Below, one piece after another: positions 6,430 to 13,709 of a stretch of DNA of 64,000 nt. Source of the DNA: an uncultured Clostridia bacterium (lineage in GTDB: Bacteria; Bacillota; Clostridia; Saccharofermentanales; Saccharofermentanaceae); NCBI GenBank assembly GCA_947165785.1, contig CAMVBS010000004.1, forward strand, positions 1 to 64,000. The letters run 5' to 3'. The notes below the pieces were generated by a model that saw nothing but the letters and a program-made list of their open reading frames with translations, did not search any database and was not told the origin of the DNA. Every line of letters begins with the position of its first letter. Within the stretch, counting starts at the first letter, position 1. The translations under genes were made by a program, and so were the position numbers.

Positions 6430-8391
6430 ATGAAGCATTTAAAAGGAATCTATGGGTTAAGAAGAAAATCTGTGGCGATCGTTCTTATCGGTTGTCTGGT
6501 TGCTTCATCGTTATTGGTCTTCGCGGGATGTAACAGCGGAAATAAAAAGCGTACCAGAAGAAGTCATGATGATGACGATGAAGAGGAAATCGTAACAGAA
6601 ACAGTAGAGACTACTACTGTCGAGACCACTTTGGAAACAACGGCAGCTACAACTGAAGTAACTACTGCTGCGACAACGACAGAACCTGTCATTACCGAAC
6701 CGGAGAGAGCCGTTACAGGCAAATTCGATATAGAGAGAAACCTTGTATGTACTCACAGAGGATTTTCTGAAGGACTTTGCTGGGTTGAATATAAGGCTAA
6801 TGATAAAGAAAAGCTCGGTGTCATGAATAAGGATGGAGAATTAATCTATTCGATCGGAGTACATGATATATCCAAACGTATCGATCAGGAATTCAACTAC
6901 AGAGTATGTTGTACGGATTTTGAAAATGGACACAGTGTTATCTTTCCCAAAGGAAGTTATGGTGACATATCTAACGCAGGTTTTATCATTATAGACAGTG
7001 AGGGAAACGAAGTTCTTGTCAAAGACAATAGTGATGCTGCTGAGAAATGGTACTATCTCGGAACTTATAATGGTGAATTCCTTGTGGCTCACTATCGTGC
7101 TGATTTTTCTCATAGCGGGATCAATATTGAAGTTATAGATGCAACGGGTAGTGTAATTGCTGATGATATCTATGAATATACGTGTAATGGTGCCCCTTCT
7201 GAATGTGGATTAGCAAGGGATATGGGTGAAGGTATATTTGAGCTTTCTCTTTATGGGTCCTCTTATTATATCAATATGAATGAGTATACTTACTTGTATC
7301 CTGACGGTCGTAGGTTAGAGACGTCTCTGTATAATGGTACAGCCTATATGACTGGAAAAGTTGAGTGCGTCACACTCGATGATCTTAAAAATCAGGAATC
7401 TCTGGATGCTTATTTATCCGAAGCAACAGACATGACAGATGGATATGGTTTCGCACAGCGAGTTGGTGGCGGATACTTTTGGTGTAGTGGACCACAGGGT
7501 GAAGGTTTTTATTCCTATGATCGTTCAGTATTTATTGAGATTCCTGCCGTATCTGATGAAGTGTATTTCAAGTATTGCGGTCATTTTAGTGGCGGATATG
7601 CACCGGTTTATTATTTGGGTGCAGACAACCAGACATATTTTACCCTTCTTAAAGAGGATGGGACATTTGCTTTTGATCCTTTGATTTGTCAAGACCCGGG
7701 TTTTTGGGATTCTCACTATGATCCGGATTCTTGGAATGGTTATACTCCTGTTTGGATGAGTGATGATTATTCATACAGTATTGTGACTCCTGAGGGAAAG
7801 ATCCTCGACCCCGGTGTGGATGATCTCTCATGCATCGGAAATGATGCCAAGATCAAGGATTGTTATTCCGGATCGCCTATTGATCTTGATAATTCATATA
7901 TTGTTTCGGATGGATTCTTTAATACAGATTATCTGAATAAATCTGTATTCTCCGATGGTGACTCTGCAGAATCTGCATATTGTTCCGGTTCTTTTGCATA
8001 TGTAAATCTCGCAGGAAGAAAGAAGATAACAGAAGTAACTGAATATGAAGATCTCAATAAGATCTTTATATACCATACGCGTGTAAACAACATGCAAGAT
8101 GATTTCGAGACCAATATGAAGAAGTTAGACAAAGAAGATGAGAGAGTATATCACTTCAAGGTCGGCGGTCTATACATGGATGAGACGGTCCCGATCTACT
8201 ATAAGTCGACTCTTTCTGACGGAACAGTTACGGAAGGTAAGTTTGATACTCCTGTCAGCGGCGATTCTGATCTGTATGTATACTGGACTTTCGATGATCC
8301 TGCAAATGTAACAGTTACATCCGAGACATTCAGTGTCTACAGATCTGATACTGATGAACTTTTGGGTACGATGTATGTTGAGTTTAACTGA
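6430..8391 (+). CDS. Lipoprotein with WG-repeat-like region
   Basis: Lipobox LLVFAGCNSG, Thr/Glu-rich linker, repeats such as LGVMNKDGELIYSIG and FIIIDSEGNEVL. Confidence 0.65.
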   Translation: MKHLKGIYGLRRKSVAIVLIGCLVASSLLVFAGCNSGNKKRTRRSHDDDDEEEIVTETVETTTVETTLETTAATTEVTTAATTTEPVITEPERAVTGKFDIERNLVCTHRGFSEGLCWVEYKANDKEKLGVMNKDGELIYSIGVHDISKRIDQEFNYRVCCTDFENGHSVIFPKGSYGDISNAGFIIIDSEGNEVLVKDNSDAAEKWYYLGTYNGEFLVAHYRADFSHSGINIEVIDATGSVIADDIYEYTCNGAPSECGLARDMGEGIFELSLYGSSYYINMNEYTYLYPDGRRLETSLYNGTAYMTGKVECVTLDDLKNQESLDAYLSEATDMTDGYGFAQRVGGGYFWCSGPQGEGFYSYDRSVFIEIPAVSDEVYFKYCGHFSGGYAPVYYLGADNQTYFTLLKEDGTFAFDPLICQDPGFWDSHYDPDSWNGYTPVWMSDDYSYSIVTPEGKILDPGVDDLSCIGNDAKIKDCYSGSPIDLDNSYIVSDGFFNTDYLNKSVFSDGDSAESAYCSGSFAYVNLAGRKKITEVTEYEDLNKIFIYHTRVNNMQDDFETNMKKLDKEDERVYHFKVGGLYMDETVPIYYKSTLSDGTVTEGKFDTPVSGDSDLYVYWTFDDPANVTVTSETFSVYRSDTDELLGTMYVEFN

Positions 8392-9397: not shown

Positions 9398-9880
9398 ATG
9401 AATATGATCTGTAACAATTGCGGAGCTAATATCGGAGACGGACAGTCTTTCTGTGAGAATTGCGGAAGTCCTGTACAGCAGGCACCACAGCAGGTGCAGC
9501 AGCCGGCTTACCAGCAGCCTGTAGCACAGCAGCCACAGCAGCCGGTACAGCAGTATCAGCAGCAGCTTCAGCCTAATGGTGCGGCAAGTGCAGAATCACT
9601 TGCAATGAAAGCCATGATATTCGGTATCGTAACGATGGGCTGTGTCGTTGTACTTGACTGGATCCCTTATATCAAGGGCCTTGCAGCGATAGCAGGTGTT
9701 GTATTTGCGATCCTTGCCCTGTCATTTACATCCAAGGCAAGAGCACTCGGTTCCAGGAACATCAAGGATAAGCTCGGAAAGATCTTCGGTGTTATAGGTC
9801 TCATCCTCAATATCGTCCTTCTTTTCATCAACATGACAGGATGGCTTTTGGGCTTTATCAACACACACATCCTTCATTGA
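9398..9880 (+). CDS. Zinc-ribbon, Gln/Pro-rich, DUF4190-like membrane protein
   Basis: MICNNCGANIGDGQSFCENCGSPV, then QQ/PQQ-rich segment, then two or three TM helices. Confidence 0.75.
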   Translation: MNMICNNCGANIGDGQSFCENCGSPVQQAPQQVQQPAYQQPVAQQPQQPVQQYQQQLQPNGAASAESLAMKAMIFGIVTMGCVVVLDWIPYIKGLAAIAGVVFAILALSFTSKARALGSRNIKDKLGKIFGVIGLILNIVLLFINMTGWLLGFINTHILH

Positions 9881-9943
9881 TCGCGGGATGACTTTTTCGA
9901 GAAAAGAAGTCAGGATAGCGTAATTTCTTCTCGAAAAAGTGTA

Positions 9944-9972
9944 TTGCAAATTACAAAGCACGAAATTATAAT
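9944..9972 (+). promoter_or_regulatory. Sigma-A type promoter of the T-box transcript
   Basis: TTGCAA - 17 nt - TATAAT. Confidence 0.65.
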
Positions 9973-9984
9973 GAGTCCATATCT

Positions 9985-10267
9985 TAAATGCGTCGATTGA
10001 GAGGAGTAGTCTTCCCAAAGCGGCAACAGGGATGAGAGGTCTTGACTGAGAACCTTTCTTGCAAAAGCCGGGAATATGAAGTTCGCTCATGAGCAGGAGT
10101 GCTGAAGCTGTTGGTTGTAGGCGTTCCCGGAGGTTCACCGTTAACATGAACGAAGAATTGTTGGATTCTTGCTGAGAGCAGCCCTTCACAAGGCTGAAGA
10201 TGGGTGGTAACGCGTATACTATACGTCCCGTCAACGGAGACAATGTCCGTTGGCGGGATTTTTGTTT
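9985..10267 (+). ncRNA. T-box leader RNA with intrinsic terminator; candidate specifier UUC (Phe)
   Basis: AGTA (10005-10008) and GAA-g-TTC-G (10078-10085) in a Stem I-like arrangement; T-box core GGGTGGTAACGCG near 10202; terminator CCCGTCAACGGA/TCCGTTGGCGGG + T tract at 10227-10263. Confidence 0.87.
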
Positions 10268-10299
10268 ATCCGAGAGCAAGATGCGAAAGGAGAAAGAAA

Positions 10300-11625
10300 A
10301 TGGCAAAAAAGGAGTTCAAGACGTTCATTTGGGACGAGAAGAACGAGTGTATGAGCGATGACGAGCGCGAAGCACTGGTAAGCGAGAGGATCAGATCCTG
10401 CGTAAAGAGACTTTATGAGAAGGTCCCTTACTACAAGAAAAAGCTTGATGATGCCGGTATCGAGCCGGGCGACATCAAGGGTACGGAGGATCTTTGGAAG
10501 CTTCCGTTTACGGATAAGTTCGACTTCAGGGATAATTACCCGTTCGGAACACTGGCTGTTCCGAGAGAGGACGTCGTACGTTTTCACGCATCTTCCGGAA
10601 CTACGGGAAGGATGAAGGTCGTAGGCTATACACAAAACGATATCGATCTGTGGTCTGATATGCTCTGCAGAGCCTTCGCCATGGCAGGCATGCAAAAGGG
10701 CGACCTTGCTCATATCTCTTACGGCTACGGACTTTTCACGGGCGGTCTTGGACCTCACTATGCATGTAAGCCGTTCGGTGCTACCGCTATTCCTGTATCT
10801 ACGGGTCAAACAGACCGTCAGATCATGATCCTTACAGAATGGAAGCCTGACGTAATCTTCTGTACTCCTACGTACATGCTCAACCTCCTCGATAAGATGG
10901 AGGAGAAGGGCATCGATAAGAGCCAGCTTAACTTAAGGACGGGTATCTTCGGAGCTGAGGCATGGACGCTCGACATGAAGCGTGAGATCGAGGAGAGAGC
11001 AGGCATCAGGGCATTTGATATCTACGGACTTTCCGAGGTGTGCGGTCCGGGAGTAGGCTGTTCATGTGAGAAGGGCGATCTTATCCACATCCAGGCAGAT
11101 CACTTCTGGCCTGAGGTCGTTGATCCGAAGACAGGTAAGCCATTGCCTGACGGCGAGATCGGTGAGCTCGTATTCTCTTCCATCACTAAGGAAGCAGTAC
11201 CGCTCATGCGATATAACACTCATGACCTTACACGTATATATCACGGTAAGTGCGCATGCGGAAGAACAACTCCGAGGATCGAGAAGATCACGGGAAGAGC
11301 AGACGATATGCTCGTTATCCGTGGAGTAAATCTCTTCCCGAGCCAGATCGAGGAGGCTATCGGTAAGCATACTGATGCCGTATCCCTTAACTATCAGATC
11401 TTCGTAGACAGGGTCAAGAACCAGGATACGATCTATGTTAAGCTCGAACTTAAGCCGAACCTCTTCTCTGATACGGTAGGTGATCTTGCTAAGCTCAACA
11501 AGGCCATCGAGGCTGATATCACATCCATTACGGGTCTTCATATCAGAGTTCAGCTCGTTGAACCTAACACGCTTCCTAAGTCAGAAGGAAAGATGAAGAG
11601 AGTTATAGACTCGAGGTTCAAATAA
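10300..11625 (+). CDS. paaK: Phenylacetate-CoA ligase
   Basis: ANL motif HASSGTTGRMKVVGYT, ILTEWKPDVIFCTPTYMLNL, DIYGLSEVCGPGV, ITGRADDMLVIRGVNLFPSQIE; ATG 10300 preceded by AGGAGA. Confidence 0.92.
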   Translation: MAKKEFKTFIWDEKNECMSDDEREALVSERIRSCVKRLYEKVPYYKKKLDDAGIEPGDIKGTEDLWKLPFTDKFDFRDNYPFGTLAVPREDVVRFHASSGTTGRMKVVGYTQNDIDLWSDMLCRAFAMAGMQKGDLAHISYGYGLFTGGLGPHYACKPFGATAIPVSTGQTDRQIMILTEWKPDVIFCTPTYMLNLLDKMEEKGIDKSQLNLRTGIFGAEAWTLDMKREIEERAGIRAFDIYGLSEVCGPGVGCSCEKGDLIHIQADHFWPEVVDPKTGKPLPDGEIGELVFSSITKEAVPLMRYNTHDLTRIYHGKCACGRTTPRIEKITGRADDMLVIRGVNLFPSQIEEAIGKHTDAVSLNYQIFVDRVKNQDTIYVKLELKPNLFSDTVGDLAKLNKAIEADITSITGLHIRVQLVEPNTLPKSEGKMKRVIDSRFK

Positions 11626-11669: not shown

Positions 11670-13709
11670 ATGACAAACAACATAAAGAGAAATGTATCCG
11701 TGGTGCTTATCACGGTAATGACGGTTATTATGGTCGCTTTCGGAAACTGCCTTGCAGATCCGGAAGCGACTGTTGATTCTACAAATCCCTGGGAATCGGG
11801 CGGACAGATAACGCTTACGCTGAGCGGATGCGACGGTTATAACAAGATAACGGTCGTAGCCGACTTCGGAGGCACGGTCTCTGACGCATCGGGCTGGGGA
11901 TTTGATACTTATAAAGTGGACGGCAGCAAGGTTACAGCTGAAGTTACAAGAGGCGGCCAGAATGACTGGGCCTTTAACGGCAGTGTCGGTATCCAGGTCA
12001 ACGGCTCCAATATCAAGGATATAAAGCTCGTATCGATCACGGGTGACGGTGTAAGCGGCACTGTCTCCAACGCTCCTTCAAATAAGCCGACGACCGCTCC
12101 TTCCAATGGTACACAGACAACTACTGCTCCGGTAGAGACAGGATCTTCCGATAACAAGGAAGGCAAGAAGGGTGACGACTGGCTTACGACAGACGGCAGT
12201 AAGATCGTCGACAAGAACGGCACAGAAGTGTGGCTTACGGGAGTCAACTGGTTCGGTTATAACACCGGGACCAACATTTTCGACGGGTGCTGGTCATGTA
12301 ATATGGATCAGTCCCTTAAGGCTATCGCAGACCACGGATTTAACCTGCTGAGGATCCCGATCTCCGCTCAGCTCCTTCTTGACTGGAAGGGCGGCAACTA
12401 CCCTCAGGCTAATTTCAATCAGGCCAACAACTCCGAACTCGTCGGAATGAACAGCCTCGAGATCTTTGATTATGCGCTCCAAAGATGCGAGGCATACGGT
12501 ATCAAGGTCATGCTCGATATCCACAGTGCGGAGACAGATGCATCGGGTCATAATGCGCCGCTGTGGTACACGGACAAGATCTCCGCTGATCAGTACCTCG
12601 AGGCACTCGACTGGGTATCCGCGAGATATAAGGATAACGACACCATCGTTGCATATGATCTTAAGAACGAGCCTCACGGCGCGGGAAATGAACAGAACAG
12701 AGCGATCTGGAATGACTCCAAGGATCCTAACAACTGGCGTTATGTTGCTTCGCTTGCAGGTAATACGATACTTGATAACAACCCTAATGCTCTAATCGTG
12801 ATCGAGGGAAATCAGATCTTCCCGAAAGATCCGGGAAGCAACAACTTTACGTCGATGAACGAGGATGATTACTACAATGCATGGTGGGGCGGAAACCTCA
12901 TGGGCGTTAAGTACTATCCGGTCGACCTCGGAAGCAAGGAGAGAAATAAGCAGATCGTCTATTCTCCTCACGATTACGGCCCTGCAGTATATCAGCAGCC
13001 GTGGTTCGGTTCGGGATTCTCCTATCAGTCCCTCATGGATGATTACTGGTACGATTACTGGTATTACATCAAGGATCAAAATATCGCTCCTATCCTTATC
13101 GGTGAGTGGGGAGGCTTCATGTCGGGCGATAACCTTACATGGATGACGTATTTAAGACAGCTCATCGGCGAGAAGAAACTCCACTATACGTTCTGGTGCT
13201 TCAATGCGAACTCCGGTGATACAGGCGGACTTGTTCTTGATGACTTTACGACATGGGATGAGGAGAAGTACTCATTCGTTAATGAAGTCATCTGGAAAGA
13301 TGATGACGGCAAGTTCGTCGGTCTTGATCATGAGATCCCTCTCGGATCTTCGGGTATCTCGTTAAGTGATTACAGCGGCATCCTCGTTACGGTGGATGAC
13401 GATAAGGAACCTGAAGAGACAACTGAGACTTCAGAGACTGAAGAAACCGAGCAGACTTCCTTGACGGATACTGCTGTATCGGAAACGGCAGCTGAGACGT
13501 CGGAAGAGGAGCTCATCAAAGAGCCTTCAGTCGAGAAGAAGAACAACATGCCTATGTCAACTCTTAGTAAGGCAATAAAGATAATTGCCGCAATACTCAT
13601 AGGTATCGCGGCAATCGCCGTTGCTTTTATTGTGCTACGTGTTGTTTACCTCAGGCGCAAGGGAATGAACTTTAAAGAGATACTCGTAAATCTCTTTAAG
13701 CTATTCTGA
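11670..13709 (+). CDS. GH5-family glucanase, C-terminally membrane-anchored, with N-terminal CBM-like domain
   Basis: Signal peptide; N-terminal beta-rich domain; GVNWFGYNTG, HGFNLLRIPIS, VAYDLKNEPHG, APILIGEWGGF; Thr/Glu linker; C-terminal TM (IKIIAAILIGIAAIAVAFIVLRVVYLRRKG). Confidence 0.9.
   Translation: MTNNIKRNVSVVLITVMTVIMVAFGNCLADPEATVDSTNPWESGGQITLTLSGCDGYNKITVVADFGGTVSDASGWGFDTYKVDGSKVTAEVTRGGQNDWAFNGSVGIQVNGSNIKDIKLVSITGDGVSGTVSNAPSNKPTTAPSNGTQTTTAPVETGSSDNKEGKKGDDWLTTDGSKIVDKNGTEVWLTGVNWFGYNTGTNIFDGCWSCNMDQSLKAIADHGFNLLRIPISAQLLLDWKGGNYPQANFNQANNSELVGMNSLEIFDYALQRCEAYGIKVMLDIHSAETDASGHNAPLWYTDKISADQYLEALDWVSARYKDNDTIVAYDLKNEPHGAGNEQNRAIWNDSKDPNNWRYVASLAGNTILDNNPNALIVIEGNQIFPKDPGSNNFTSMNEDDYYNAWWGGNLMGVKYYPVDLGSKERNKQIVYSPHDYGPAVYQQPWFGSGFSYQSLMDDYWYDYWYYIKDQNIAPILIGEWGGFMSGDNLTWMTYLRQLIGEKKLHYTFWCFNANSGDTGGLVLDDFTTWDEEKYSFVNEVIWKDDDGKFVGLDHEIPLGSSGISLSDYSGILVTVDDDKEPEETTETSETEETEQTSLTDTAVSETAAETSEEELIKEPSVEKKNNMPMSTLSKAIKIIAAILIGIAAIAVAFIVLRVVYLRRKGMNFKEILVNLFKLF

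Follow-up and report, generated by a model that had tools for sequence, protein, structure and literature searches.

The window analysed here, 64,000 nucleotides of contig C4 of the draft genome of a rumen-type clostridial anaerobe (2.46 Mb, 148 contigs, 96.65% complete), carries a T-box leader with a phenylalanine specifier upstream of a gene for a PaaK-type aryl-CoA ligase (paaK), and the same pairing recurs in many gut Clostridia. The T-box, its specifier, the match to the host tRNA, the terminator, the family of the ligase and the recurrence of the arrangement are established by sequence. From these we infer switching, substrate, direction and flux, and consider it quite probable that the phenylalanine T-box controls a ligase serving phenylalanine supply. 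In the mechanism that we propose, uncharged tRNA-Phe (anticodon GAA) would pair with the specifier UUC when phenylalanine is scarce, and its ACCA end with the UGGU bulge; uncharged tRNA is known to stabilize the T-box antiterminator (PMC7778990), and its binding here would block the terminator at 10225–10259, allowing readthrough into paaK and perhaps also into the next gene, a cellulase. The ligase would convert phenylacetate to phenylacetyl-CoA, a separately encoded indolepyruvate/phenylpyruvate:ferredoxin oxidoreductase (IOR) would combine phenylacetyl-CoA with CO2 and reduced ferredoxin to give phenylpyruvate, and transamination of phenylpyruvate would yield phenylalanine. Since paaK would be gated by phenylalanine shortage, its expression should raise phenylalanine.

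The leader is the single above-gathering Rfam match in the whole 64-kb window (cmscan; RF00230, 99.7 bits against a gathering score of 93, E = 8.8e-21, full model 1–219) and spans positions 9984–10233 of the forward strand, including Stem I, Stem II, Stem III and the antiterminator. A preliminary description made from the letters alone had already recognized a T-box with a competing terminator, beginning at 9985 (one base off the start of the Rfam match), and had proposed TTC at 10082–10084 as its specifier. Both the T-box and the specifier are borne out, the covariance model alignment placing UUC at those positions and not elsewhere, within the loop GAA-G-UUC-G. The T-box core GGGUGGUAACGCG lies at 10202–10214 on the forward strand, with its UGGU bulge at 10205–10208. 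By sequence comparison, the specifier matches the GAA anticodon of the host tRNA-Phe (in locus L103, truncated at its 5' end where the contig begins), and the bulge complements the ACCA end of this tRNA, which has discriminator A and terminates in ...GGGC-A-CCA.

Upstream of the leader, a sigma-70-like promoter (TTGCAA-17-TATAAT, 10 of 12 consensus positions) lies at 9944–9972 on the forward strand and is aligned in genus relatives (L014–L016 and L029). At the other end, an intrinsic terminator of 14 pairs with a U-run (10225–10259, forward strand) overlaps the 3' half of the antiterminator; the strand CGUCCC is common to both hairpins, which are mutually exclusive. Folding of 10200–10266 gave a dG of −29.8 and a z-score of −4.8 against shuffles. 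Across seven leaders from the genus, 95.9% of terminator cells were paired and five pairs were altered on both sides, and the pairing was destroyed in a control in which the partner was slid by 1–3 columns. Stem I folded alone by energy was no better than shuffles, so its assignment rests on the covariance model. The leader resembles the class I phenylalanine T-boxes of RF00230 in its Stem I specifier loop, core, UGGN bulge and terminator/antiterminator pair, and is by sequence a class I (transcriptional) tRNA-Phe T-box with predicted switching. It differs from known T-boxes in its target, a carboxylate-CoA ligase.

Within the genus, a UUC T-box precedes the same paaK at loci L014–L017, L029, L051 and L060, and the leaders of L014–L017 and L060 align with the same GAAGTTC; both this motif and the variant core are invariant in the alignment of seven genus leaders. 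The T-box is not universal across the genus: many relatives keep paaK without one, directly behind a dCMP deaminase gene. We surveyed 293 Clostridia genomes, 166 of them with a close PaaK, and examined 100 loci for T-box cores. Seven family groups (f1, f3, f9, f13, f36, f50 and f72) have a core immediately in front of paaK, and the specifier was UUC in every T-box paaK leader aligned to the Rfam model (17 of 17, the window and 16 others). The weakest case, in f36 (L183:3981-4195), has a UUC specifier and a UGGC bulge unfit for discriminator A, which implies either a misread specifier or a different tRNA. Rfam did not support a weak candidate core at L217, which was set aside.

The ligase itself (P0001, 441 aa) is encoded at 10300–11625 on the forward strand, where the ATG at 10300, preceded by GGAGAAAG, is the likely translation start; the GTG at 10204 given as the start in the open reading frame list falls within the leader and was rejected. 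Matches to TIGR02155, Pfam and PDB identify the protein as an AMP-forming aryl-CoA ligase with a full-length AMP-binding plus AMP-binding_C_2 architecture, and its top PDB matches are the phenylacetate-CoA ligases 2y27 and 2y4o. It is thus like PaaK in length and domains, but its TIGR02155 score of 521.9 bits is under the equivalog cut-off of 646.3, which places it in the wider family outside the equivalog, and it is controlled like an amino-acid supply gene. Because the score misses the NCBI PaaK equivalog cut-off, phenylacetate is a likely but not certain substrate. The same shortfall would suit a scheme in which the T-box works as proposed but the substrate of the ligase is a different carboxylate (4-hydroxyphenylacetate or indoleacetate) or a broad range of them, and the pathway serves the aromatic amino acids generally or some other acid, as would the activity of IOR on phenyl-, hydroxyphenyl- and indolepyruvate (PMC13285125). 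We regard this as unlikely, since all aligned T-box paaK leaders are specific for phenylalanine and none for tyrosine or tryptophan, and the closest solved structures are those of phenylacetate-CoA ligases.

A gene for a GH5 cellulase (PF00150, 161.9 bits; 11670–13709, forward strand) begins 44 nt 3' of paaK, and no terminator-like site was called between the two genes in the window. In the genus relatives inspected, too, the gene that follows paaK is GH5-like, in some cases only a few bases away. The cellulase gene is possibly co-transcribed with paaK under phenylalanine control, and its role in the system is uncertain. Phenylacetate is a growth factor for cellulose digestion in some rumen ruminococci, a point that we counted, along with the adjacency (often a few tens of bases) and the missing terminator call, in favour of a paaK–cellulase transcript governed by the T-box mainly for fibre degradation, with phenylacetyl-CoA not destined for phenylalanine. 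Such a role seems decidedly improbable: outside the genus, no GH5 gene neighbours a T-box paaK, a phenylalanine tRNA sensor would be an odd control for a cellulase, and the adjacency may be plain synteny.

Returning to phenylalanine supply, we looked at the partner enzymes of the proposed route. IorA is present in 19 of the 20 genomes with a T-box paaK, encoded elsewhere in the genome, and prephenate dehydratase likewise in 19 of 20. The window's genome has an IorA on contig C19 (714.9 bits against a cut-off of 650.9) with IorB adjacent; it is of a divergent type and lies near a second PaaK. A subtype that we call IorA2 (76–100% identity to the copy in genome G335) occurs, within the genus, only in genomes with this PaaK. 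IorA2 was not found in the window's assembly of 148 contigs, but the three closest relatives have it, and an assembly gap is therefore possible. IOR genes with similar leaders, a prospect raised in the preliminary description, did not materialize: scans for the T-box core motif found none at 20 iorAB loci in T-box genomes and none within 6 kb in front of 94 paaK genes in ior clusters, and no examined IOR locus has a T-box core. The window's genome also encodes shikimate genes and PheA (chorismate mutase-prephenate dehydratase). The presence of PheA rules out paaK as the only route to phenylalanine, so the paaK route would be an alternative that serves salvage or saves energy. That PheA makes the route dispensable in principle was counted against the phenylalanine supply explanation, as were the sub-cut-off PaaK score, the missing IorA2 and the many paaK genes in the genus without a T-box.

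The commonest setting of paaK in Clostridia is an iorA-iorB-paaK-ACT cluster. T-box copies are instead solitary or beside an ACT-domain gene, and none of the 23 lies in an ior cluster, compared with 94 of the 129 copies without a T-box (Fisher test, 9e-12, with kinship ignored). Clusters of IOR with an arylacetate-CoA ligase, found in Bacteroides and other anaerobes and with ACT partners in many Clostridia, encode the same two activities, but paaK of the window's type stands apart from iorAB, behind a phenylalanine T-box. In three f3 genomes (L082, L083 and L084, from G042, G045 and G036, respectively), a paaK homologue heads an array paaK-tyrA-aroE-aroF-aroB-aroA-aroC, with Pfam names in the L082 operon for tyrA, an aroE/shikimate kinase fusion, aroF, aroB and aroC; tyrA is also near paaK in two f28 genomes (L138 and L139). 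In a FastTree phylogeny of 152 PaaK proteins, one clade of 35 rows (support 99) contains most of the T-box copies (17), five copies adjoining tyrA (three of them heading the aro operon) and no ior-cluster copy, and some T-box copies were placed outside it. The T-box label changes about 10 times on this tree, at least five of these changes being forced by well-supported branches. The counts do not distinguish gain of the T-box from its loss, but gain or retention, if repeated, would in either case argue for function. A small double-ACT-domain protein (PF19571) accompanies the ior-paaK clusters at L070–L078 and at many of L144–L224, joined in some genomes by a PaaI-like protein; this points to feedback by amino acids on the pathway.

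The preliminary description had argued for an anabolic and not a catabolic role of this PaaK, a view that gains support from the recurrent phenylalanine T-boxes on paaK, the aro-gene context, the IOR in 19 of 20 T-box genomes and the isoleucine and valine T-boxes on acyl-CoA ligases in the same genome. In a published study, an AMP-forming arylacetate-CoA ligase adjoining IOR in Bacteroides was assayed, and its role was judged to be probably biosynthetic (PMC13285125). The same study links the Bacteroides IOR to conversion of phenylalanine to phenylacetate, which would fit PaaK and IOR running oxidatively for energy gain with the T-box incidental; we consider this very improbable, because the T-box would switch on at phenylalanine scarcity, the opposite of a catabolic need, AMP-forming ligases favour acyl-CoA synthesis (PMC13285125), and the T-box label has changed repeatedly on the PaaK tree. 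That the T-box is decayed or misassigned and does not control paaK is scarcely credible despite its core GGUAACGCG in place of the common GGUACCGCG and a score only 6.7 bits above threshold, given the invariance of the variant core in seven genus leaders, the covarying terminator, and the contiguity of promoter, leader and gene.

The window's genome contains eight T-boxes, and the specifiers of the other seven were taken from the same alignment approach. Five of them fit amino-acid gene targets, which supports this way of reading specifiers: Leu-CUC before leuA, Thr-ACA before thrS, Trp-UGG before trpE, a second Trp-UGG (L006, G000:C53:12803-13057) before a TrpB-like enzyme (TIGR01415) that is possibly an indole salvage gene, and Tyr-UAC before an SSS transporter. 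The remaining two, Ile-AUC and Val-GUA, each precede an acyl-CoA ligase gene. Leader and gene together span L258:2473-5119 (G000:C100) for Ile and L259:3913-6504 (G000:C65) for Val, with the ligases at L258:2792-5119 and L259:4213-6504; the products are 763–775 aa with cupin and AMP-binding regions, and the Ile one has a weak N-terminal HTH match. Their nearest NCBIfam model is MbcS, the Staphylococcus aureus acyl-CoA synthetase for branched-chain acids (PMC10026030), from which they differ in reaching about half its cut-off score, in the extra N-terminal cupin (and HTH-like) region and in T-box control. A VorB subunit of a VOR-type oxidoreductase is encoded in the same genome, above cut-off. 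Since phenylalanine, isoleucine and valine T-boxes each precede AMP-binding acid-CoA ligases, all three would gate such ligases in this organism, and the Ile and Val ligases are possibly the branched-chain counterpart of the phenylalanine case. When other T-boxes in four related genomes (G001, G017, G019 and G057) were inspected for Val or Ile T-box ligases, those targets that could be identified were ordinary, including leuA, ilvB, trpE, tyrS-like and ilvA-like genes; the Ile/Val ligase pattern thus rests on one genome.

We lean modestly towards a broader proposal, in which phenylalanine T-boxes (in this genome also those for isoleucine and valine) gate dedicated carboxylate-CoA ligases in some rumen and gut Clostridia, and phenylacetate, 2-methylbutyrate and isobutyrate would undergo activation and reductive carboxylation only while the cognate tRNA is uncharged. 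If true, amino acids would be rebuilt from fermentation acids under the control of tRNA, and the anabolic PaaK proteins would form a distinct clade. The presence of Ile and Val T-boxes before acyl-CoA ligases suggests that a broader regulatory logic governs how branched-chain and aryl acids are used in the gut. The recurrent phenylalanine T-box names a candidate ligase and a physiological sign (on under phenylalanine shortage), which makes the pathway from phenylacetate to phenylalanine testable in cultured relatives. It is also a warning that such paaK genes should not be annotated as phenylacetate degradation.

The riboswitch is an ordinary T-box and the ligase a member of an established family, and the synthesis of phenylalanine from phenylacetate was already known in the 1960s. 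As cited in PMC7356843, rumen anaerobes synthesize phenylalanine by reductive carboxylation of phenylacetate (Allison 1965); the predicted chemistry and the habitat are the same here, but that work is physiology, while the present analysis offers candidate genes and regulation. What gives the arrangement its value is that it recurs, that it stands apart from ior clusters, that it is linked to aro genes and that it has a parallel in the Ile and Val T-box ligases. A T-box survey reports a phenylalanine T-box before a transporter and does not mention paaK (PMC2494555), and we found no description of a T-box with paaK or phenylacetate in open papers, although large T-box surveys and databases may list the pairing. 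Near one T-box paaK copy, in locus L225, there are also a glycine riboswitch (7330–7427) and an FMN riboswitch (9788–9917).
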